A stretch of DNA of 64,000 nucleotides from Cloeon dipterum (Eukaryota > Arthropoda > Insecta > Ephemeroptera > Baetidae). Made by a program: the position numbers and the translations under genes. How positions within the stretch are numbered: position 1 is the stretch's first letter; every line of letters begins with the position of its first letter. The stretch lies in assembly GCF_949628265.1 (NCBI RefSeq), contig NC_088789.1, positions 8,610,886 to 8,674,885 of the forward strand, in the 5' to 3' direction. The notes beneath the pieces were generated by a model. The model was given only the letters and a program-made list of their open reading frames with translations, ran no database searches and was not told where the DNA came from. Below, piece by piece: positions 5,540 to 28,583 of the stretch.

Positions 5540-8495
5540 ATGGAGCTGGAGCAGCTTACTGGTAAATCCACGCTCGGAATAGAAGCGTTGCTCCAGCGCG
5601 GTGATGCTGCCGAGTTCGCTAACATTTTAGCGACTAGATCTACATCCATAAGTCCAGAGGAAGTTTTGCGAGATATTTGCATCGCAGACAACATCGAGGT
5701 AAGCATTTTAATTTAGAATTTTAGAATCAAGTAAAGTGGTGGTTATTTAAAAAATTTCCATCCATGAATTGAGTTTTTTATTTTAATTTAAATACATATT
5801 TTTTCTAGAAAGAATATAAGAAATATTTTAAAAGTAAATATATTGCACACTGAACATGAAGCAAAAGCGGGATAGAAAGCTAAAATTATCAATGAGTAAT
5901 ATTATTTTTGCCTTAATTATGTTGCAGGAAAAAACGAAATGCGATTTCGCGCGTGAGGTCCTTAACAGGTATGACGCCCATGGGAATGAGGAACCTTACC
6001 CAATATTTATAGCAGCGGAAACAGGGCAACATCAGTTGCTAGAAACACTCGTAACCCACAGAAAGCACCCTGCAGTTCTGACTGTTCTAACTAACCACGG
6101 TGAAACAGTGATTTTATCCGTGGTGCGCAGGGTCGTAAAAAGAAAAAACTATCATGCTGACGAGTGTTCGCAAGATGAGGAAACGTCTGCACTGAAAAGT
6201 ATTAAGATGCTGGTGGCTAATAAATGCGACATCCACGCCAGGGACGATGTGTCACCTGGTTTTACAGCAATTCACCTGGCAGCCAAGAACGGACTCTGGA
6301 AGTTGGTTAAGTTCTTCTTAAGTGAGAAGGTCAACATTGATATAGTGATAGGAAAAGAGTCCACAAGAGAGCTTATTGTGAAACACGATTGCACCCTAAT
6401 CGGTAATAATTATGAAGGAAGCGAGGAAACGGGAGAAGATCCGCGAAAGAACCTGATTAACACTCTGAGGAACCGAAAGTTTACTGTCAGGACAAAAGAA
6501 AATTCCTTTCAAGAATGGATGGAAAACAATCCCGAGCACGATTCTTTGGTGCTGAAACCCTACAAGGGAGGACAGACATTGCTGGAGGAGGCTGTTGATA
6601 AAGGTCTCCTTGAGATGGCTCGCGTGCTTATTGAAAAAGGAGCCGATCCTAATCCAGCCCTATTCTCCGCGCTACAAGCTGGTGAGAAGTTTTTTGATTT
6701 ACTTACGAAATCAGAGATCCCACTGAATTTGTCAAAGAAAACAAAAGGTGAGGCAAATCAGACCGTTCTGCACAGGGCAGTGCTGTCTGAGCATCCTAGC
6801 GTCAACGTAGTCGACTACATACTAAAAGAAAGTGCTAAACACAACTACTTCTCAGAGTTGATCAACGCGAGAGACTACAAGAGCTGGACGGCCCTCCATT
6901 ATGCTGCGAACAGGCACTTGAACGAAATAGTTACGATCCTGCTTGGCCACAACGCAAACTTATTCACTAAAGATTTCTTCGAACAACCTGCATTCTTTTA
7001 CCTGCGACCTGAGGTGATTGAGGAACACCTAAACAGGCAAATTCAGCTTACTGCGTCGCAGACAGAGGACAACTGTGGCATCATATTTGACTTTACTTGC
7101 CTAAATATTCCTCGAGAAAAATGCACGACGAGAAAGAATCGATCACGTTATAAAGAGGGCAATGACGTGTATTTGGCAGTTGAAGAGGAGGAGGAAGATA
7201 AGGACAAGATCTTCCACCGCGAAATGGAACCTTTGAAAATGCTAGCAGACTCACCAATCCACAAGCAATTACTGCTGCACCCACTCATTAGGGCATTCCT
7301 CCTACTGAAATGGCAACGCCTCTTTTGGTTCTACTGGCTGAATTTCAGTGTCTACCTAGCTTTTACCGCCTTTTTCTTCCTCTTTGTCTTCAGCATCGAC
7401 TTCAAAACGATTGACGTGGGCAACACCACTGAGCACAATAGCAGCAACGTTCTGCCACGAAGCGAATTCCTCCACGAGTACCAGAAGACTGTCCGGGTTG
7501 CCCTATTCGCACTAACTATTATACTAGGCCTGAGAGAAATATGGCAATTCACAAATTTTAAGGCAAAGTATATTTTCAAAGTGGAAAACTGGCTAGAAGT
7601 GGTGGTCATTTCTTTAACGATCTGGCTGATATTTTCACCGCAGAATAAAGCGCTTGCTTCAATACTCTCGCTTACAATCACCCTGGAAATGGTATTGCTC
7701 ATGAGTCGTCACCCACGACTAGCAACCTACGTGCACATGTTCCTTCAGGTGGCCCAGAACTTTGTTAAGTTCCTGCTCTGGTACATGTGTTTGATCATTG
7801 CCTTCGGTTTCGCTTTCTACATCATCTTCCCCTACTGTCACGAAGGAGGAGACTGTAAAAACTTCTTCAACACAATTCCTACTTCCATCTTTAAAACAGT
7901 CGTCATGATATCCGGCGAATACGAATCAGGGGACATCGAATTTGAGCATGTATCAATCGCAAGCCACCTGATTTTCATTGCTTTTCTATTTTTCATATCT
8001 ATGGTCATGGTTAACCTGCTGAATGGTTTAGCTGTTAGTGACACGCAGCAAATAAAAAGCAACGCAGAACTAATTTTCTGCAAGTCTCAGGTCAAGTTTT
8101 TCTCAGATATCGAGTCTACCATTTTGTCAAATTCTGCGGAAGGTTGTTGCCAGTCGTCATTTAGACCGTGGGCACAGTGGATGAGCAGTAAAATCGTGCT
8201 GCTTAACAATTTACTTGGAAAAGATAACAAAATAACCGTGTATTTGTACAAGAATAATGAGGTGGTTCCTGACGTGAGAATATCTTGTGATTGCTGCCTT
8301 TGTTTCGACTGGAAGAGGCTGCCGTTTGGTATACGCAAATTGTGCAGCCCTTATAACAAAATTGTATTTGACGCTCTCCAAATTGTGAATAGAAATGACG
8401 AGAGCAGTCAGATGGATCAATTACTTGCGCGAATGAAGAGATTGGAGGATATCATAGAAAATAAATTATTTGCAGCGCATAAAAATGAGTTTTAG
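5540..8495 (+). CDS. pain: Painless-type TRPA cation channel
   Basis: Predicted non-selective cation channel of the TRPA family, in Drosophila used for noxious heat and mechanical sensing in sensory neurons. Two coding exons, 5540-5698 and 5928-8495, in phase, give about 908 residues, close to Drosophila Painless. The N-terminal 480 residues are ankyrin-type repeats (for example GFTAIHLAAKNG, GGQTLLEEAVDKG, SWTALHYAANRH). Then PLIRAFLLLKW leads into six membrane segments at roughly residues 516-543, 575-595, 608-623, 630-646, 664-687 and 731-757. A pore-region segment SGEYESGDIEF and the post-S6 motif LLNGLAVSDTQ match Painless closely. The C-terminus has a Cys-rich stretch and ends in a short amphipathic helix (LLARMKRLEDII). 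A poly(A) signal AATAAA lies at 8763. The channel domain is entirely in one exon. Painless paralogues exist in many insects, so strict orthology is not proven. Confidence 0.93.
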
Positions 8496-15245: not shown

Positions 15246-17798
15246 TTACTTTTTCTGTTCCTTGCGCTTCTTTGCAGCCATTTTCAATTTCTTCTTCCTC
15301 TCAATATCGGCCAAATCCTCCATCAATCCTTTGAAGCAGGAAAGAATTCTAAAATTAGCAACACTAGATCAAAACTGCATAAGAGTCCATACCTATTTTG
15401 GCGCTTTTGAACTCTTCTTGGCTAATTTGCCCATAACTTGATTCCATGCAGGCATCATCCTCAGTGTCACCGAATCTGGAAAATGTAAAATTTTAAGATT
15501 TTCGGATTATTTTGCATAATAATACAACTTACTTTGTCTTATCGTATTTAAACATAGCCTGTATCATGGAACTGACGTCAACGTTTCCCTCCTGTGGGGT
15601 GTCATCAATAAAATCATCCATCTCGGAATCATACTCGGAGTCGCTGGTAATGACCATCTTCTTATGTTTTGACATATTTTGCGGTCTAGGTGGGTATCCA
15701 TTTCCTGTGGGTCGACCCATCATGGGTCTGTTGGCTGGACTCGGCCGACCGTTGGAACTTCCCGGTCTTGATAATGGTCTTGGAGGACCAGTGGAAGATC
15801 TCTGTAGTCCTAATGGGGGTTTAGAAGGACCTGTGGCAGGACGTGGCGTCCCAGATAACGGCTTAGAAGGCCCTGGAGGAGGTCTTGGAGTTCCTGTGGA
15901 AAGTCTAGAGAGGCTTGAGGAAGGTTTAGAGAGGCCTGAGGAAGGTCTTGGAGCTTGTGATGGTCGAGAAGGACCAGAGGGAAGTCTTGGAGCTTCTGAT
16001 GGTCTAGAAGGACCAGATGGAGGTCTTGAAGACCCTCCTACTGGTGGCCTACTTTGACCTGTGATAGGCGGCTTTGGAGGGGGTTTTGTCAGAGGCTGTG
16101 TTGGTCTTGACTGTCCTCCTGGTGGTCTCACTCCAGGTTTAGATATAGTTTGACCTGAACCAGACCTTGATGGTGTTTGCGGAATGGCTTTGGAGTCAAT
16201 TCTTGCATTTGGCTGCGGCCGGTTAGGTGGCTGAGAGCGAGGCTTCTCTGTTGGCCGCTGGGGCAAGTTTATCGGGGCTCGGGCCTCTGATGGAGGTTTT
16301 GTATTTTGAGGCATGGACTTTTCAGGCACTTTGCTAGGCTTCATGGCAGTGGGATTTGGTTTCTTTTCGGGGGCAGTGAGTCTTTTCTCCAGGATCGAGC
16401 TTTTATCTGCATTCTTTGCTGGGGGCAGCTGCCCCTTTGATTTCTCAGCAGGCTTGGGTGATTTTTCAGTGGAGTCCTCAGGCGTAGAGAGCTTGGGTAT
16501 TTTTGGAATGCGGCCAAAGCCTAACTGACTACTAGGAGCGGCTTTTTGCAACATTTTAGCCATTTTATCTCTCTCAGCTTTCTTTTCTAAGTATTCCTTT
16601 TCCTTGAGATACTCCAACCTTTGCTTCTTGGTCATCGGTCTTTCAGACTCTTCAGGAGCCTTTTTGACAGGGGCAGGTCGTAATAGTTCTTCATCTAGCA
16701 TTGGTCTGTAACATTTTAAAATCCTCATCAGTTTATACAATTTAAAACCCTCTCTGCATTTAACTTACTTCTAAAATTACAGCAACTTTAAAATTATCCA
16801 CAAAACAATTAGTGTAATTTGTTACCTGTCTTTGTTTTTATGAGCCTGACGTAAAATTTCATTGAAATCCATAATAGGCACTGGCGCCTTTTTGGTTTTT
16901 ACTGGAGCTGGCAGCTCTTCATGGTCGCTGAAGCCATCATAGCCCCTGTCAAGATCTGTTTTCTGTTTCCTTTTGCGCCGGTGGGGCTGCTCTGCCTCCA
17001 TTTGCTCGCGTTCTAGGGCCTCCTGTACGCGAGCTCTGGTGGCGTTCAGGTTGTTGGCAGGCTTTCTCGAAGGAACCACCGTCTTGGCTTTGTTCTCAGA
17101 TGCATAGCCCTGCATCATTTTGGCGTACATTGCTTGCTCGGTGGCCGAGGAAAAGCCATAGTCATCTTCGTCTGGCTGCCTGACAGCTGAAATTTTTAAA
17201 TCGATTTAAACGGATTTTCGTGATTAGAAAAAAAGTTAAAAAATTATTTATTTATAATACCATCTAGGGTATCCTGAACAGCATCTGACATCACAGATTT
17301 GCTAGCCGATTTAGCCGACTTTCTCATGAGCTGTACCCTTTTCACGGCTTTTGAGTCCTCTGAACGTTTCTCAAGCAATAGCTGTTGAGATTATAGAATA
17401 AACATAAATTAAGTAATACATAATTGAAAATGATCAAGAAATTTTCGAAGGAATTTAAGTTTAATTGCGAACTGTCAGGCAAAATGATTTTACATAATTT
17501 GACAATATACTGACCCTTTTTTTCTCGTCTTCCTTCTCTTTCAACATTCGCGCTTCTTCATCTTTTTGCGCCAGGTACTTTTTGACGCCAGCGGTCAGGG
17601 CGGCATCCTTGCGCGTCTCCTTCTTGGGGGGCTTGAAAGAGGTTGTTAAGTACCGGCCCTAAAGGAGCAAAATATTTAACAACGTGATTAAGAGAAATAG
17701 GTCACTTTAAATGAACGTACCGATTTGTTTCCACCGTTTTGCTTGTTCTCGTTGGCAACTTGCATTAACTTGGAGAAATCTTTGATGGATTCGTCCAT
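15246..17798 (-). CDS. SPT2: SPT2 chromatin protein homologue (SPTY2D1-like histone chaperone)
   Basis: SPT2 proteins bind histones H3-H4 and DNA and act during transcription elongation in the nucleus. Seven exons, all in phase: 17721-17798, 17515-17658, 17261-17381, 16826-17186, 15533-16705, 15393-15475 and 15246-15328, about 720 residues. The C-terminal SPT2 histone-binding domain is clear: YDSEMDDFIDDT, then VSSMIQAMFKYDKTKF, then DDACMESSYGQISQEEFKSA, ending in a basic LADIERKKKLKMAAKKRK helix. The N-terminus has FSKLMQVANEN and a charged coiled coil (AQKDEEARMLKEKEDEKKR), typical of the family. The middle (roughly 15690-16500) is low-complexity Pro/Ser/Arg with imperfect 10-13-residue units around GPSRP and TPRP. 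Charged KKQRLEYLKEKEYLEKKAER precedes it. The start is the first ATG of the frame. It converges with the RNF141-like gene. Confidence 0.95.
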
Positions 17799-19551: not shown

Positions 19552-22500
19552 ATGGCAGAGCCAAGTGAGTATAATTTATTTTTCCCCCACAAAACAAGTT
19601 AAGAATCCTAAGGCATTAATTTAGGTAACAATCAAATGTTTTGCCTTTATTTTATTTTATCTTTGATACATATACTATATATGCCTCTGGAAAGTCAAAC
19701 AAGGCCTTTTTTATACGCACGTTTTTCGCCTTCTGCACTCCTATTAAGTACAAAATCTGCTATTTTGGGTAAACCTTTTTTATATAATTTATATCAAAAT
19801 CTATGGCATAAAATTAATTTTAAGTCCTGCTTCTTCAATAAATATTTATGGTAAATAGTTCTGCACTCTTATTAAGTAGATTGATTTTGCGTTATGCAAA
19901 GTTAACTTATTCTAATTACAGGGCGCAAAAGGCGCAAAATAAGGGTGTAAATCCCTTGTACTATCTTAAAGTTTCAAAAAATCGCTCATGGGTCGTAAAA
20001 TGGTTAAAAAAAGGCCATATCACAGTGTTCCCTTGGATGCCAGGGTACAGGGAAATCATCGTGGTTGTTGAAAGACCGAGTCAGGGACACAACGTTCTAA
20101 ATTAATTTCATACAAAATTATTCTTATTTGTTATTTATTTCCTTGTTCGAAAACTATTTACCATAAACATTTATTGAAGAAGCAGGACTTAAAATTAATT
20201 TTATGCCATAGATTTTGATATAAATTATATAAAAAAGGTTTATCCAAAAAAGCAGATTTTGTAATTAAATACAAAATTATACTTTTAATAGAGCGTAAAC
20301 ATGTGAGTTTTTATAATATATCAGTAAAATGAGAAATGATCAACGCACTAATAGTTGAATCGGTTTCTTGCACGGTAGGCTTGTTGCGCAAAAACTGGCA
20401 ATGCATATTTAATTACATACAGTTTGAAACTCTTTCAACCACAGGTACTTTCTATTTATAAAAAGTCATCATTTAAGTAAAGCTATTAATTTTCAACACC
20501 TTATGATGATGTGCAGTTTTCAAAAAAGTCTTATTACTTGAAAATATTATTGCTTCAAAATTATGTATTTTAAAAAGTCTACCTTCTCAAGGCAGACTTT
20601 TTGGTTCTTAATCGCAATCTGTGTAGATAATTCAAATAATGCCCCTCCCCGTCTGCAAAAGAATTGACATTTTCGCTACAAAGTTTACGAGATAAACAAA
20701 ATAATCAAATTTTTTGCTTAAAAAAGCGTGTCAATTTTTTTAGTTGTTCTTTTAGACAAAACTTAAAAATATCCGCTATATACGCTCATGTTTCTCAATT
20801 ACACTTAATTGCAACAATTACGTGTGATCACGTTTTCCACTTAATTAAATTCTCTGTTAGAAGAGTAAAATGTGAGGAAAATTCCGAGTGACCTCTTGCC
20901 AGCATAAACGCCTTGCAGAAGGATGGCAACTGTGCCGCCGAACAGACTTGCAGTGCGGGTAGATCGTGCCAGTACCATTATTCCTCAAAACGAAAATTAT
21001 ACTAGTTTTTACTAAGGTCGGTGTAGGCCGGCAGCTGCTGCATCCATAAATGCAGGTCGTCGTCGCGATGGACCGGTGAAGCATGCCGTAGTCTATCTTC
21101 AATGCGCGGATCACTTTTGATCCGTGAGACAAGTCACTATAATTGAGAGAGGATGAAGTTCTGTTCAGTCAATTAAACCTACGGAAAAGCTCAATATATT
21201 GAGATTGAAAGGGCTTTAAGATTTGCACGAAATTTAATTCAGTTATTCAGAAAGTATGTTTTTCGGTTTTAACTCTTTAATAAACGTAACGAAATAGGTT
21301 ATGACAGTACCGGTCAAGGCAAGGTTTTGTCTAGAACTAGTAGTGGCGAGGATCACCACAGTTTTCTTCTTTTCCGAGTTTGGCCAATGCCGCGATCTTG
21401 GCTGCAAAGTGGAAAAAATGAGTGACATAATTAAGGGGGAACGTTACAGTGTTTTATTTTTCAGCCTAAAACGACATGAATACTTCAGGTGAAAATCCAG
21501 ACTGACCTCCCAAAAAGGTTTGCTATACTAATAATACAAGCGAGAGAATTTCTAATTGCAAGCATAAAAATTGGAACATAAAAAATGGAAAATAGCAATT
21601 TTTGAATACTCAAATAATATATTATGAATATGATTATATTCTTGCTTTTTTGAGATTTAAATTGATGAACATTCTTAAAACTTTATCATCTATAACTTAA
21701 CAGGTAATTTTAAAGGTGGAACCGTCGACCCAGCAAATTCTGGAATATTGAGAAGGACGATGGATGGAGCTACTGATATCGGGAACGCCGAAAAGTCAGT
21801 TTTTTCTTTATGTGTACTAATGAAAAATATTCATTTGTATTTCTTCTTTCACCAGTGTTTTTGTTCTTGTTATACACTACAATAAAACGCGAAACGATTG
21901 CAAAGATTGCGCCGCTGATGTGCACAATCTGCGCAAAACGTTGGAAGAGAAAAGAAACTACAAATTACGTGTTTTGTCATCTCCAAGAAAAGAAGATTTG
22001 TTTAGTCTTCTCAGTGACCAAGAAAAGTTGCTACAATATTTCAACTCGGAAGGTAAATATCAATCATCATTGTATTGTTTGATTATGTGCGCTCTAAAAC
22101 AATTTATTTTTTTCACAAGCAGATCATGAACCGTCGGTTTTTGTCATATTTTTTCTGAGCTATGGATGTGACGATGAGGGCAACAATTTCATTTTGGAGG
22201 ATATCTATGCCTCTTTAAGCAATCTAAAAAGCTTCAGCAACTGTCTTAAGGTCTGCGTGTTAAACGTACGTATATTTGACATAATTATATTGATGCTGCC
22301 AAATTTTATCATTGATAAATCCCCCCAAAAAAAATATGAATATAACTATTGAGGTCTCAACAAGTCGCGCTGTTCCGCGCTATAGCTGGCAAATTTTGGT
22401 CACGTCGGCAGCCGCCAGCCGCCGTGAATCTGGCTAATAATAAGCTGCGCCAGTCGCCGGTGAAAAAGGGTCAAAATTTTAAAAGAAAGAAAAAAATGTC

Positions 22501-25500
22501 TTCTGGCCCTCCGGGCCGTTATGCACTATCAAACTTAAAGTGAAAACATTGCCAGCCGCCGGTGAAAATGGCCTGCCACCGGCTCCGGGCAAAAAATTTG
22601 GACTAACCTGTCCCGCCAGCCACCGCCTTAAATCTCGCGGCTGAGACCTCTATTATGCAAAACTTATTGTTGAATGACATACTAGAGACAGTCTTCCCAA
22701 TTCTTGTACACGCCAGCAATGACAAATAAGAACTTAGTGTGTGTGTTTTTTTAACTAATATGCTACGATCGATATGTTTTCACCCGACACACCTGCTTCT
22801 GTTGTCACCACTTCTTAATTTGTATCAGATAAACATTTTCATATACTAAGAAGATGCTACCAAGCATATAATTCCACTTTTTTGACGTGGAATGTGTTGA
22901 TATGTACCATTTTTAATTGCAAAAAATAGTATTTGAGCCAAGCATCATAAGTTTTTACGACGCTGCTGATATTCCCCTTCATGCGATACACCGGTGGTGT
23001 TAAATAATTAATATTACATTTATCCAACAAATTTCAGCGCTTTCAGAACGAGTTGAATAGTTTGCCTAGCGAAAGCATAGAAGACGGCCACATTAGCAAT
23101 TCTCCTTTTGAACTTGACTCACATACCAAATCGATGAAGAACTTTATAGCTTTTTGCACAACGTCCGTTGTACTTACTGGTGAGACTAATATGGGGAAAT
23201 ATTTTCAAAACTTTTAACTGGAACGTTTTCAGCTAATGATGAAGGTAATGATGGTTTAGGTTCAACGTTGGTCAACGCAATTTGTGAGATTCTTGACAAC
23301 TTGGATATATCTATGGAATTGCTCCAATTTTTGACGTTAATTCAAGGAAAAATCAGATGCGAAGAAACCAATGCTGTAACACCAAAAATTAGGGTGTTTT
23401 CTAAAACTGAAAAATTTATCATCAGTCCCCTACCAATAAGGTAATACCTTTATATGTACTTGTATGTTTTTTTATCATTGGTTAACAGTAGGTCAAGCTT
23501 CCTCTTTTACTTTATCTTGATTTTTATCGGACCGTGCTCTATTGAGGTGCATAGAAAGCACCGAACTTCACTATTTTTTGACCTCAATTGAGGTCAATTA
23601 ATTGACAAATAAATGAAAATATAGCAACTTCATTAATGCCTCTTTAACTTTGGTTGATTACGGTCAATGTCTTGAGACCGGTGTCGTCAAAGAGATTGCG
23701 AGGAGCAGTGAGGGTAGGGGGAGGTGAGCAAGCTATGAGAGTAGGCGCATTATTGTTAATTTTTGGTATTGTTAAATAATATTTTGGGGGTACGTATATT
23801 AAAAAGAATGCAATTGCTGTAGTAAAAGAAAAAGTAAATATATTACTGTGTGCTTACTGGTATTAAACGCACCTGTCTGAAAGTAGGGCCGGTTTCCGTT
23901 TTTATTTGCTTGAAATTTTTCAGATAGGACATTATGGCAGTGTTTCAATAGCCACGTCCTTTCATAATGCGTATTCTGACTCTGATTTTATGGTTAAATT
24001 GAACAGAAAAGATGAGGCCGTGAGCTGCTTACTGGCGAATAAATCCGTAAAATCGTTGGAACATATGCATGTCAACAGCAACTTTCATAAAAGGGAAATG
24101 AGTGCTGGGGAGGCGATCAGAAGTCGCTACTGGGCGTGCATAATCTACAGAAAAATGAGCAAACAAGTGCGTCAGTTGAATGAAATGATCTTAGAAAAAC
24201 TCAACTTCAACACGATGATGGACGAGTGGAGGAATGATATATTGGAAACATATTCAGGTGAAAACTTTACAAATTAACAGTTATTAATGCTATATTTATA
24301 TCATTTTTACTTTTCGCTTATTTAATTTTCATCATTTGCAGGACCTGAAGTAGATCTTGTCATGGCGTGTTTGTTTTGCTTTGTTGACAAACAAAACGAA
24401 AACCAAGAAATTTGCCTTAAAATAGATCATCAGGAGCAGTCCATACCCATAGCCACTATCACACGCCAGTTGGTCGGCGGGTTGCATACAAAGGTGATAG
24501 GAAAACCGAAAATCTGTATTCTAATTAATCAAAACGTGGAAAGCTCTGGAACGGTAATGATTCAAAAAATAAATTAATTTGGAATAATTGCAGCTATGCT
24601 CAAAACTAATTTTTAGGCACCAGAGAAAAAGATGGCTATAAGAGTAACCAATCACAGTGGATGGCTGGTTCTTGTTATAGACGAACGTAAGATTAATTTA
24701 ATTTTAATAATGCTAAGTTCGAAATACATTTTTAGGTCACACAGAACAACTTATCCACGTGCTCCAAGGAGATACTCTGCAAAGAGGAAAAAGTCTTCAT
24801 GAACTTATAGCTCCATTGCTCGTTAAAGGTTCAACAGATGAATTGGACAGTGCTGCTCTGCTGAAATCTACAGTGCAGTATTTAATCGACTCATCCTCTA
24901 ATAAGTCAACCTTTTTTGCAAAGCCAAGTCTAACAGTAAAGACAGTAAAGGACTCTGGGAATTCCTTTAAAAATAATATTGGATACAATGATTTGCTGAA
25001 AAGAGTGGTAAAAGATGCAGAAAACCGTTCCGCCGTCGTCTGGTTGTTCAGTTCGATTGCCGGAGGAGGAAAATCGACAGTGCTGCAAAAAATGGCCTAT
25101 GATCTAGCTAACCAAATGAAAAACATAAGAATTGTTCAAATCTCGCTGGAAACAACAGCCCCTTATTTCAAACTTGATTGTTCGCCTGCTGAATATTTGG
25201 CTTGCGCAACTCACCATTCAACAAAGGAGGCAAAAAAGTTAACTGAATCAAAGAAATTAATAGTTTTTCTTGATGGCTATGATGAAATCAGCAGCACTGC
25301 TCGCGATAGAACGTTGAGTTTAATTGAGTGGCTCTGTGAGAAGAAACTAATGATTTTGGTCAGTGCTAGACCACGAGAGATTCGCACTATTCAAAATAGG
25401 CTGAAAACAAGGCTTATTCATATTGTTGATATTGAGCCGTTTAATATTTTCAAGCAGTTAGATGGGATGCAAAGGGTGTTGCGTAAGAGCAAAGGGGACA

Positions 25501-28500
25501 AAAAATTGTTCCAAAATGAATTACGGAGCATTTTTATGCAAAGCTCTCAAGGATCATCCCTCGGCAGAGATGAATGCAAGACAACAGACAACTTGTATTT
25601 GATTTATGAACAAGTCGTTCTTGAATTTGTAAGAAAAGCAGTTGAAAACAGATCTGACAAGGAAAAAGCAGCCCAGAGAATTCTAGATGGCTTGATATTG
25701 CACGCGTTCAATTGTATTACTGGACACACAAAAACTCAAGAAACCACGGAAAAGAAAGATTTGGAAAGTATGAAAAATACAAAAATAGTGAAAATCGATG
25801 GTGAACGTGTTACATTTCTTCACCAGAGTTTTGCAGAATTCCTCGCTTCCAAGTCGTTTTTGGATAAAATTGCGACATCAAGTGATTCTGACCTGGCACT
25901 ATTCAAGAATTGGAACTTTGCACCGTGCAGAAAGTTCATTAACTTGTTTTATTCGTCGATGAAAAAGGACCAACTTCATGAGTGCAGCAAACAGTTACTC
26001 AGTTTTCTCGGTAAACAGCCTCGTTATTGTTTGAATACAATTTGCGAAGAGGATCTTGGACAAATATTTGCAATGCTGGAACCTCACATTTCTTTCGTTG
26101 GAGATAGTGGATTGTTTTATGTGGCAGATTGTGAACAGCTTGTAATCGATTCAGTAGGAAGTGAAGATATTGTAATGCGGTTGTTACAGAGGGCGCCCAT
26201 AATCAATCGAATTTGTCGCTTATCTGTCGAAAAATTGATTGAGTTGTTGGACCGAGTTGCAAGATATAACGCAATAGCTGTATTGAAGAGGCTAAAAGAG
26301 ATATTCGAAAAATCCTCGCAGTCATTGCCTGACATGATTCAATCGCAAAATGAAAATATCGACGCAGGGATCACGGCTACAGAAAATGGTCATTACCAGA
26401 TTCTTGATTTACTCTTAAAGAGCGGAGTTGATGTCAACATCACTTTAATGTCGCGACTATCTGGAAGAAAAACCAACGCTCTACACACAGCATGCACAAG
26501 AGGAGACATCAATTGTTTCAAGATCCTGCTTGAGCACAACGTTGACCTCGAACAGTTCTCCGCCGAAGACAGAAAGATGTTTGGCACACAACCAGACAAC
26601 ATAACCGAAGGAAGTAATATAGTTCACTTTGCTGCTTATGTGGGTCTTAAAGACATGGTCTCAATTTTACACCATCACAATGCTGCGCTGATCCACACAG
26701 AAAGCACTTATGGATTCAGCCCTCTACACTTTGCAGCTTGGAAACAGAATTGGGAACTTTGTCTGTGGTTGGCAGAAGAAGCGGGAATTGATGTTGAAAT
26801 TTTGGACCCACGTCGTCGCTCTCAGAACTGTTTTGAAGGTTGCAGTTCTGAAAAATGGACCATGTTTGACTGGAGGGCACAAGATTTCATGCTGCTGCTG
26901 TGCGCGAAAATAAGCTTTAATAAAGGTGACTCAAAGAAACTAAATTTGATTGCCGACCGGAAATTAAAGGGCGGACAAACATTATTGCACGCAATGCAAG
27001 AAGACAATAAGGAGATGTGCACGTTTCTCATTGATAAAAACTGTGGAAGAGTCCAGGATATGGACGATAAAGGGCGCACTGCCCTTCATTTAGCTTGCAA
27101 AAAGCATTTTAAGAGAGTTTGCGCGGTCTTGCTAAAAAAAGGAGCAAACGTAAATTCTGTTGACTGCAAAGGAAGGACAACACTGCACTACGCTGCTAAA
27201 TACGGGGAGAGTAGCATAGCGAAATTGCTAATTGAGAATGGTGGAGATGTAAAACAACATGATTATTTCGGTAGAAGTGCTCTGCACTACGGAAATATAA
27301 TTTTGGCCTTGGCAAATGAAGAAGACCAACTGCCGTCATGTGACGCAATACAACTGCAACCGGTCATCCCAAGCTCCAAAAAGATACTGTGCTTCAACAT
27401 CGCTTTTCACAGATTGTTTACTTACCCCCCGATATTCAATTTAAAATACGGCTTGGACTTGGAAATGTTTGTCGAAGCCGGGTTCTACTACGTTAAGGAA
27501 GAGAAACAATTAAATCCAATTCTACGTTGCTTCTCATGCGATTTTGAAATCGAAATGAAAGATTTTCAAGCCTGGAGAAACATGGACGTTAAGAGTATAT
27601 TAAAAATGAAGGGTAACGATTGTGAAATAGGCGTCAGCAACACAGAAAACGTGCCCATGAAAAGCTATCACGTGCCTAATTTTAAATACGAAGCAGCTAG
27701 GCTTTTCTCTTTGCTTCAAAAAAAGAACTGGTCGTACGTAACACCTCTAGATTTGGCCAAGAATGGTTTTTATTATAGCGGCGATGATGACAATTGCCGC
27801 TGTGCTTTCTGCAATCTAGAAGTCAGAGGCTGGGAGGCGGGTGACACCGCTCGTGGTGAGCATAAGCGTTGGAATCCCAACTGCCTGTTCTTGAGAAACA
27901 TTCAAAATATTGACAACGTGATAATCGGCCAGGAAGCGGCTGTAGCAAAAAAGCCGGGTTACTTGAAAGGCATCAGCGACCCATTTTTGACCACCGAGAG
28001 CTTGAGCGAATGTCTAGGATCGCATTTATTACAAAAAGAGACAAGTTCTACAAATACGACAGTCAGGAACCTCAACCTCATGCTATGGTCGACTTCTAAG
28101 CACCCGAATTTCGCCAGTCTACTGAAGAGAACAGAGACGTTCAAGAATTATTGGCCGCTCAGCATGGCGCAGACAGGGCACGAACTCGCAAGGGCTGGTT
28201 TCTATTACACAGGCTCTGGAGACATGGTGATCTGTTTTCACTGCGGCATCGGCCTTAAGGACTGGGACCGTGAGGACGATCCATTCAAACAACACGCCAA
28301 ATGGAGTTCTGCCTGCCAGTTCTTGCTTTTGTGTAAAGGGTCTCGCTCTATAAAAAATGTTTTGTTCGCTACCAAAGCGATCAGTGACAAGCAACCGACA
28401 GTTGTTGAGATTTTAAACTCACGACCAGGAGAAGCTAGCATGCGCTGCAAGTTGTGCCAAAATAATTGCGTCAAAGTTGCCAATCTACCGTGTGGACACA

Positions 28501-28583
28501 TCAATGTTTGCGAGCGATGTGGCGGAGATGAATGCTTGACATGTGCACGACCGATTGAAGGAACTATTGAAATATTTTACTAA
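19552..28583 (+). CDS. Caspase-like x2 / NACHT / ankyrin / BIR x3 / RING protein (NLR-like, novel architecture)
   Basis: Ten exons join in phase: 19552-19564, 21704-21794, 21856-22052, 22123-22265, 23038-23179, 23233-23440, 23941-24257, 24342-24553, 24617-24686, 24736-28583; about 1746 residues. Residues ~34-265 are a caspase fold (FVLVIHYNKTRN, VFVIFFLSYG, FIAFCTTSVVL, LVNAICEILDN, EKFIISPLP). Residues ~300-540 are a second, weaker one (WACIIYRK, IPIATITRQLVGG, GKPKICILINQN). Neither keeps the His-Gly/Cys pair: SHG is SYG in the first and absent in the second, and QACRG is missing from both, so both look inactive. A NACHT domain follows (Walker A IAGGGKST near residue 570, Walker B IVFLDGYDEI near 636, VSARPREI, HQSFAEFLASK). 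Ankyrin repeats span ~1010-1320. Three BIR-type domains carry GFYY; the second and third keep CxxC-H-x6-C, the first lacks the His. The C3HC4 RING is complete (CKLC, LPCGHINVCERC, CLTC). Likely an intracellular sensor/E3 in death or immune signalling (inference). The 13-nt first coding exon is the least certain part. Confidence 0.87.
19742..20270. repeat. Fold-back inverted repeat (119-bp arms, 291-bp spacer) in intron 1 of the NACHT gene
   Basis: Arm 19742-19860 is the near-exact reverse complement of 20152-20270, sharing a run through ATATAATTTATATCAAAATC and AAGTCCTGCTTCTTCAATAA with only a few mismatches. A 20-bp direct repeat with one mismatch (ttctgcactcctattaagta at 19731 and ttctgcactcttattaagta at 19859) brackets the left arm. 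The spacer carries an open frame without recognisable similarity. It resembles a fold-back or MITE-type element. In the pre-mRNA it would form a long double-stranded hairpin. Confidence 0.8.
22351..22650. mobile_element. MITE-like GC-rich repeat, copy 1 (intron 4 of NACHT gene)
   Basis: Bounded by perfect 9-bp inverted termini GAGGTCTCA and TGAGACCTC, with TATT on both sides as a possible short target duplication. The interior is unusually GC-rich (CAGCCGCCAGCCGCCGTGA; GCCAGCCACCGCCTTAAA) against AT-rich intron. Two related copies lie downstream of the gene at 29090 and 29558. It contains no transposase. Confidence 0.75.

Follow-up and report, generated by a model that had tools for sequence, protein, structure and literature searches.

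Gene structure

The stretch of DNA analysed here (the window, 64,000 nucleotides; C4:8610886-8674885 of the 190 Mb, 10-contig genome of the mayfly Cloeon dipterum, Ephemeroptera, Baetidae) raises the question of whether one insect gene can join two caspase folds, a NACHT ATPase, ankyrin repeats, BIR domains and a RING, as an earlier note on its sequence had proposed, and, if so, what such a protein might do. The window's large ORF is 100% identical to C. dipterum LOC135942178 across 99% of the ORF length. Scripted joining of nine exons gave 1701 residues identical to LOC135942178 (Table 1), an exact splicing script recovered the same nine-exon chain without being supplied with splice sites, and the introns are GT-AG throughout. 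The earlier note had listed ten exons with matching phases; its first exon, at 19552, is absent from the NCBI model. An acceptor at 23924 for exon 6 was rejected, as it breaks the frame and the NCBI model has 24007. The first exon of P0002, a protein from a second C. dipterum annotation, is another one further upstream; its counterpart in the window (21476) carries an in-frame stop, which leaves the N-terminus of the window gene provisional. An inverted repeat with 117-nt arms that are 97% complementary lies between 19552 and the gene (19744-20268) and is probably a small transposable element.

Table 1. Coordinates of the coding exons, predicted domains and possible alternative intron within the window
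Feature	Position in window	Strand	Remarks
Complete coding region, nine exons	21760-28583	+	Translation is P0001 (NCBI LOC135942178), 1701 aa
Exons 1-5	21760-21794, 21856-22052, 22123-22265, 23038-23179, 23233-23440	+	
Exons 6-9	24007-24257, 24342-24553, 24617-24686, 24736-28583	+	
Caspase unit 1 (aa 12-241)	21793-23440	+	Tyr replaces catalytic His (SYG); CRG active-site motif absent
Caspase unit 2 (about aa 242-485)	24007-24932	+	No catalytic motif
Exons of caspase unit 2	24007-24257, 24342-24553, 24617-24686, start of 24736-28583		
Possible alternative intron	24829-27630	+	GT..AG, in frame; P0002 joins exactly these points
NACHT ATPase	25059-25445	+	C4:8635944-8636330; Pfam 37.4 bits (cut-off 26.7); Walker A IAGGGKST, Walker B IVFLDGYDEI
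Ankyrin repeat region (about aa 963-1273)	26364-27296	+	Pfam Ank families, 1.1e-37
BIR1, degenerate	27429-27629	+	Without CX2CX16HX6C; GFYY at aa 1335; among three Pfam BIR stretches
BIR2	27675-27902	+	Zinc pattern complete (CX2CX16HX6C, aa 1442)
BIR3	28128-28325	+	Zinc pattern complete (CX2CX16HX6C, aa 1586); 86.5 bits
RING	28440-28562	+	Complete C3HC4-type ligand pattern (aa 1657)

NACHT, ankyrin repeats, BIRs and RING all lie inside one uninterrupted ORF of 1288 aa, whereas no ORF exceeded 260 aa when the window was simulated 50 times under a first-order Markov model. This bears out the claim that the NACHT/ankyrin part and an IAP-type RING are joined in one chain. For the caspase exons, the evidence comes from the intron positions. 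When P0021, the one paralog used for this comparison, was placed on its genomic locus, the final eight of its introns agreed in phase with the eight of the window gene (2,1,0,1,2,1,0,1), at offsets of 0, 0, 0, 3, 5, 5, 6 and 0 alignment columns; the intron between the caspase unit and the NACHT exon is common to both genes and lies 0 columns apart. Three extra introns of P0021 fall in an N-terminal extension that has no counterpart in the window gene. In P0002, the same caspase exons are spliced to the BIR part of the same last exon. Because all eight introns match P0021 in phase and nearly in place, the caspase exons and the NACHT exon belong, as far as sequence can tell, to one gene. It could be objected that the models supporting one gene are predictions without exception, and that the caspase exons (21704-24686) and the large exon (24736-28583) are two adjacent genes fused by annotation. 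But the uninterrupted ORF, the caspase-to-NACHT intron held in phase and place with the paralog, and the junction of caspase exons to the BIR exon in P0002 contradict this, and make it very improbable. Our reading, held with high confidence, is of a single gene in which a caspase-pseudocaspase-NACHT-ankyrin member of a large mayfly family and a nearly whole IAP are joined within the last exon. The one predicted polypeptide proposed earlier is supported.

The caspase units

The caspase-like folds read from the sequence were recovered, and in addition they have lost their catalytic residues. The window protein is predicted to carry a caspase p20-p10 fold, and in the motif table its unit 1 shows SYG and NRFQN where the catalytic His and Cys would align. 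Neither the catalytic His nor the catalytic Cys of active caspases is present in the window gene, whereas 12 of the 13 aligned relatives keep the dyad. The dyad-bearing paralogs, which are gene models too, lack at the aligned place the p10 Arg that we take to be a residue of the classical P1-Asp pocket. Unit 2 of the window protein went unrecognised in the Pfam search, and no SHG- or CRG-type motif occurs in unit 2 in any of the 15 aligned rows; the HG of unit 2 in P0022 and P0026 falls in the p10 part. Foldseek gave only three matches under 0.001 for unit 2, and from rank 6 the entries are unrelated, several being flavodoxins or flavodoxin fusions. Profile-profile comparison of units 1 and 2 found no sequence similarity (probability 0.6%), and the only grounds for a common origin of the two are the fold and the order of intron phases, which repeats across the units (2-1-0-1, 2-1-0-1). 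The suggestion in the earlier note that the caspase folds may serve as an assembly or decoy module fits this apparent loss of catalysis.

The NACHT-ankyrin part and its family

In the Pfam searches, NACHT, ankyrin and BIR domains were found, with the RING falling under the cut-off and caspase unit 2 missed. A winged-helix-type motif (FLHQSFAEFLA) follows beyond the NACHT. Ankyrin repeats are in place and no leucine-rich repeats are among the Pfam matches to E 1, so that by the LRR criterion the window protein is not a bona fide animal NLR.

The C. dipterum genome holds at least 101 NACHT matches by profile search, and 72 of the 101 have caspase-unit exon matches on the same strand within 5 kb upstream, against none on the opposite strand and 1 downstream. 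This tally describes matches, as distinct from the intactness or ankyrin content of each locus, and uses 150 listed of 187 caspase-unit matches with a family protein as query; 72 is an undercount, since the window gene itself and a gene on contig C1 fall among the 29 missed. Pairs of C14 and NACHT family-model matches within 4 kb number only 9. As to specificity, of 14 control genomes, bacterial or archaeal, 11 gave matches to the NACHT model, 3 of them above its cut-off, and 1 to the C14 model, and two of the three relatives scanned, P0019 and P0021, score slightly below the NACHT cut-off. With 72 of 101 NACHT matches carrying caspase-unit exon matches upstream, the window gene is, by its sequence, a member of a mayfly caspase-pseudocaspase-NACHT-ankyrin family. 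Three quarters of the matches (75/101) lie in two clusters, 45 at C4:29.2-36.1 Mb and 30 at C2:0.8-4.7 Mb, and many of those in the clusters are preceded by caspase-unit exon matches.

Searching proteins with the caspase half yielded 15 hits, of which 14 are C. dipterum proteins and 1 comes from Neocloeon triangulifer; among these P0001 alone has BIR among its listed Pfam domains (P0002 lies outside the length range of the search). The protein searches rely on shared five-residue words, which distant orthologs may escape, and in the search with the large ORF the best 7988 candidates were scored. The relatives P0018-P0030 (C. dipterum, with the one Neocloeon protein) likewise have two caspase-fold units, NACHT, a winged-helix-type motif and ankyrin repeats; they differ from the window gene in the dyad noted above and in that their listed Pfam domains include no BIR. 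Since the single Neocloeon protein recovered carries no BIR, the fusion of a NACHT gene to an IAP may be young. In two C. dipterum relatives, P0019 and P0020, the tandem ankyrin arrays are very long, with 27 and 22 Pfam Ank stretches, and may be fast-changing sensor ends.

The IAP half and the origin of the fusion

From about aa 1300 the window protein is colinear with mayfly IAP ORFs. It qualifies as an IAP in having CX2CX16HX6C in two of its three BIR-type domains and a C-terminal RING pattern, with all 16 ligand residues of BIR2, BIR3 and RING in place, and it ends in IEIFY (at 28580). The RING scores 22.3 in Pfam (cut-off 27) and aligns to the cIAP1 RING at i-E 1.2e-4. BIR3 is the top-scoring BIR match in the genome among the matches listed, and aligns with BIR3 of cIAP1 and XIAP. 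In the PDB lists for BIR2 and BIR3, NAIP chains come first on the summed score of their three BIRs; the best single BIR3 stretch among the five shown is that of cIAP1 (73.3 bits).

The BIR family model, which has matches in none of the 14 control genomes, has 102 listed in C. dipterum, 48 of them on contig C3 and 43 of these within 7.77-7.88 Mb. In or near that cluster are ten ORFs of 434-498 aa with a degenerate BIR1, complete BIR2 and BIR3, and a RING. These IAPs and the one at C1:20918392-20919599 resemble the window protein in this layout and in a similarly short-spaced RING, and are colinear over their whole length, but their ORFs contain no NACHT or caspase parts and are 36-45% identical by BLASTP (up to 47% for the best by phmmer). 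Against the BIR2-RING part, 13 of 14 distinct mayfly IAP copies gave 39.5-44.6% identity by BLASTP and one (L004) 36.5% over 244 residues, in a set that excludes L006 for want of a 200-aa ORF. As in the window protein, BIR1 is without the zinc pattern in all 10 full-length ORFs read from mayfly IAPs (BIR1 lies outside the L024 ORF).

Among the 101 listed NACHT matches, only that of the window gene lies within 5 kb of a BIR match; one other, at C1:20924594, comes within 20 kb of one. At this second locus (C1:20918392-20926986; L029 6392-7599 and L030) an IAP gene stands tail to tail with a caspase-NACHT-ankyrin gene, about 3 kb apart, a sign that the two gene types adjoin elsewhere in the genome. 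The pair was rejected as the source of the fusion: its genes stand tail to tail, its IAP is 44% (BLASTP) or 47% (phmmer) identical, barely above the others, and its NACHT gene is 26% identical in the NACHT part. Also on C1, at about 20965280-20969526, BIR matches are followed by caspase-NACHT exon matches on the same strand. In trees of the IAP part (18 rows) and the NACHT part (22 rows), the window gene sits on a long branch with unsupported placement; no donor is claimed for either half.

These long branches, the missing catalytic residues and the unsettled N-terminus, with its in-frame stop in the counterpart of the P0002 first exon, could be those of a neutral or decaying chimera kept by chance after caspase catalysis had gone. 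We consider this quite improbable: the long ORF is intact, 16 of 16 ligand residues of BIR2, BIR3 and RING are retained, and the fusion occurs in two C. dipterum protein sets. Between P0001 and P0002, identity is 88-97% in four segments of the caspase region and 95.3% in the BIR2-BIR3 part, so that the IAP half decays no faster than the remainder.

Alternative products

P0002 joins aa 451 to aa 1385, and thereby lacks NACHT, ankyrin repeats and BIR1; it also lacks the RING, and its final ~55 residues are unmatched. The full-length protein is therefore perhaps not the sole or main product. Because the junction sites of P0002 occur in the window as an in-frame GT..AG pair, whose use would drop NACHT, ankyrin repeats and BIR1, an isoform without the NACHT switch is possible from the sequence; equally, the alternative intron may be an annotation artefact. 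Outside its caspase units the structure model of P0002 is of low confidence (mean pLDDT 46.6), and its BIR half was set aside. The shared junction sites would also suit a gene with several products, mainly a caspase-BIR form like P0002 or an IAP form, in which the full-length protein is minor. We judge this improbable, since the NACHT-ankyrin part is free of stops and frameshifts across 2.8 kb with its motifs intact, which argues that it is in use, and P0002, without a RING and with an unrelated tail, resembles a prediction artefact.

Possible function

NACHT proteins oligomerise upon activation, caspases are activated through dimerisation, and IAPs bind caspases and ubiquitinate via the RING. 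Since the window gene has kept the switch and the sensor, lost the dyad and gained an IAP, its best explanation is a NACHT-gated brake, the single-gene fusion included, on caspase activation by its relatives in mixed oligomers; we hold this tentatively, at slightly less than even confidence. The ankyrin repeats would serve to hold a ligand or to sense it, and switching and oligomerisation, alone or with relatives of the same domains, would fall to the NACHT ATPase. Within such a mixed oligomer the non-cutting caspase units might pair with the live units of the relatives while adding no activity, BIR2 and BIR3 would hold active caspases, and the RING would ubiquitinate these or the whole complex. 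The net outcome would be that caspase activation by the relatives is damped, a direction that we infer. The gene suggests a cell-death sensor converted into a brake.

A parallel is offered by c-FLIP(L), which likewise has a caspase fold without catalytic residues. It is built on death effector domains and is not known to have NACHT, BIR or RING; no death effector domains are among the Pfam matches of the window protein to E 1. According to PMC7864959, the c-FLIP(L) pseudocaspase is proposed to pair with caspase-8 and can stabilise or inhibit it depending on their ratio, and c-FLIP(S) ends caspase-8 assembly. This is an analogy without kinship, and it does not fix the direction of effect.

The earlier note had favoured a self-contained sensor. 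NACHT/ankyrin and IAP-type RING do stand in one chain, but a regulator of relatives is at least as likely, because a family exists and nearly all of its aligned members keep the dyad. In the fuller form of that proposal, a ligand bound to the ankyrin repeats would release the NACHT switch, the dead caspase units would provide an assembly scaffold or a decoy, and the RING would build a ubiquitin chain for signalling. The E3 end with its full ligand patterns and the intact NACHT motifs would suit this, as would the signalling of IAP RINGs in insect immunity, where a ubiquitin chain made by the RING of Drosophila DIAP2 signals in the IMD pathway. With many caspase-unit relatives, 12 of 13 aligned bearing the dyad, an isolated function is less economical, and we rate it a serious rival of lower probability.

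The damping of relatives could be part of something larger: an arm of mayfly innate immunity or cell death made up of one-chain receptors, perhaps as many as a hundred or so, with the window gene as dedicated inhibitor, which we put forward as a rather doubtful possibility. If it were true, each receptor would contain its own caspase, a pseudocaspase as dimer partner, a NACHT switch and an ankyrin sensor, combining apoptosome and caspase, and the inhibitor would have arisen through inactivation of its caspase and gain of an IAP ligase, thus entering the same oligomers and shutting them down. The joined domains also hint at a shared pathway, and NACHT-ankyrin proteins, caspases and IAPs are predicted to meet in one mayfly complex.

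Comparison with known proteins

NAIP (BIRC1) resembles the window protein in having BIR domains and NACHT in one polypeptide. Its BIRs are N-terminal, and it has LRRs and no known RING or caspase fold; in the window protein the BIRs are C-terminal to NACHT and ankyrin repeats, LRRs are absent and a RING is present, a layout other than that of NAIP. XIAP, cIAP1 and DIAP1 also combine BIR with a C-terminal RING whose ligand set is of the same type, but are not known to have NACHT, ankyrin repeats or caspase units. The hybrid immune genes of amphioxus offer a parallel in the lineage-specific joining of immune and death domains, with caspase fusions and about 21 NACHT combinations; amphioxus is a deuterostome, and its combinations, as far as the available part of the source goes, are others, none of them caspase-NACHT-ankyrin-BIR-RING (PMC2575513).

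The earlier statement that no protein of this order has been described agrees with our searches. A protein search with the BIR-RING half, covering proteins of about 935-2977 aa, found four, namely the window protein itself, a wasp BIR and RING protein, a BIR, LRR and RING protein and a frog NAIP; the other three do not have the domain order of the window protein. In literature searches outside subscription papers and preprints, none of the titles listed describes such a protein: papers listed for mayflies and NACHT are unrelated by title, none was listed for NACHT, Ephemeroptera and caspase together, and those listed for joined domain pairs do not concern insects by title. A word search of the accessible text of the C. 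dipterum genome paper (PMC7250882) found no occurrence of caspase, apoptosis or NACHT. Each domain is known; the combination is undescribed within the literature and proteins searched.

To our knowledge, insects are usually said to have no NLRs. Drosophila and C. elegans are given as lacking a NACHT domain in PMC2575513. In contrast, this insect genome has at least 101 NACHT matches, 72 of them with upstream caspase-unit matches, and one gene that unites receptor, caspase folds and IAP. The larger finding may be that an insect has this wider family of NACHT-ankyrin genes with caspase units.

Other features of the window

Two further ORFs were noted in the window. A single 885-aa ORF at 5838-8495 (+) has ankyrin repeats and an ion transport domain and is labelled TRPA-like from its sequence, and a 411-aa ORF at 15529-16764 (-) matches the SPT2 chromatin protein barely above the Pfam cut-off.
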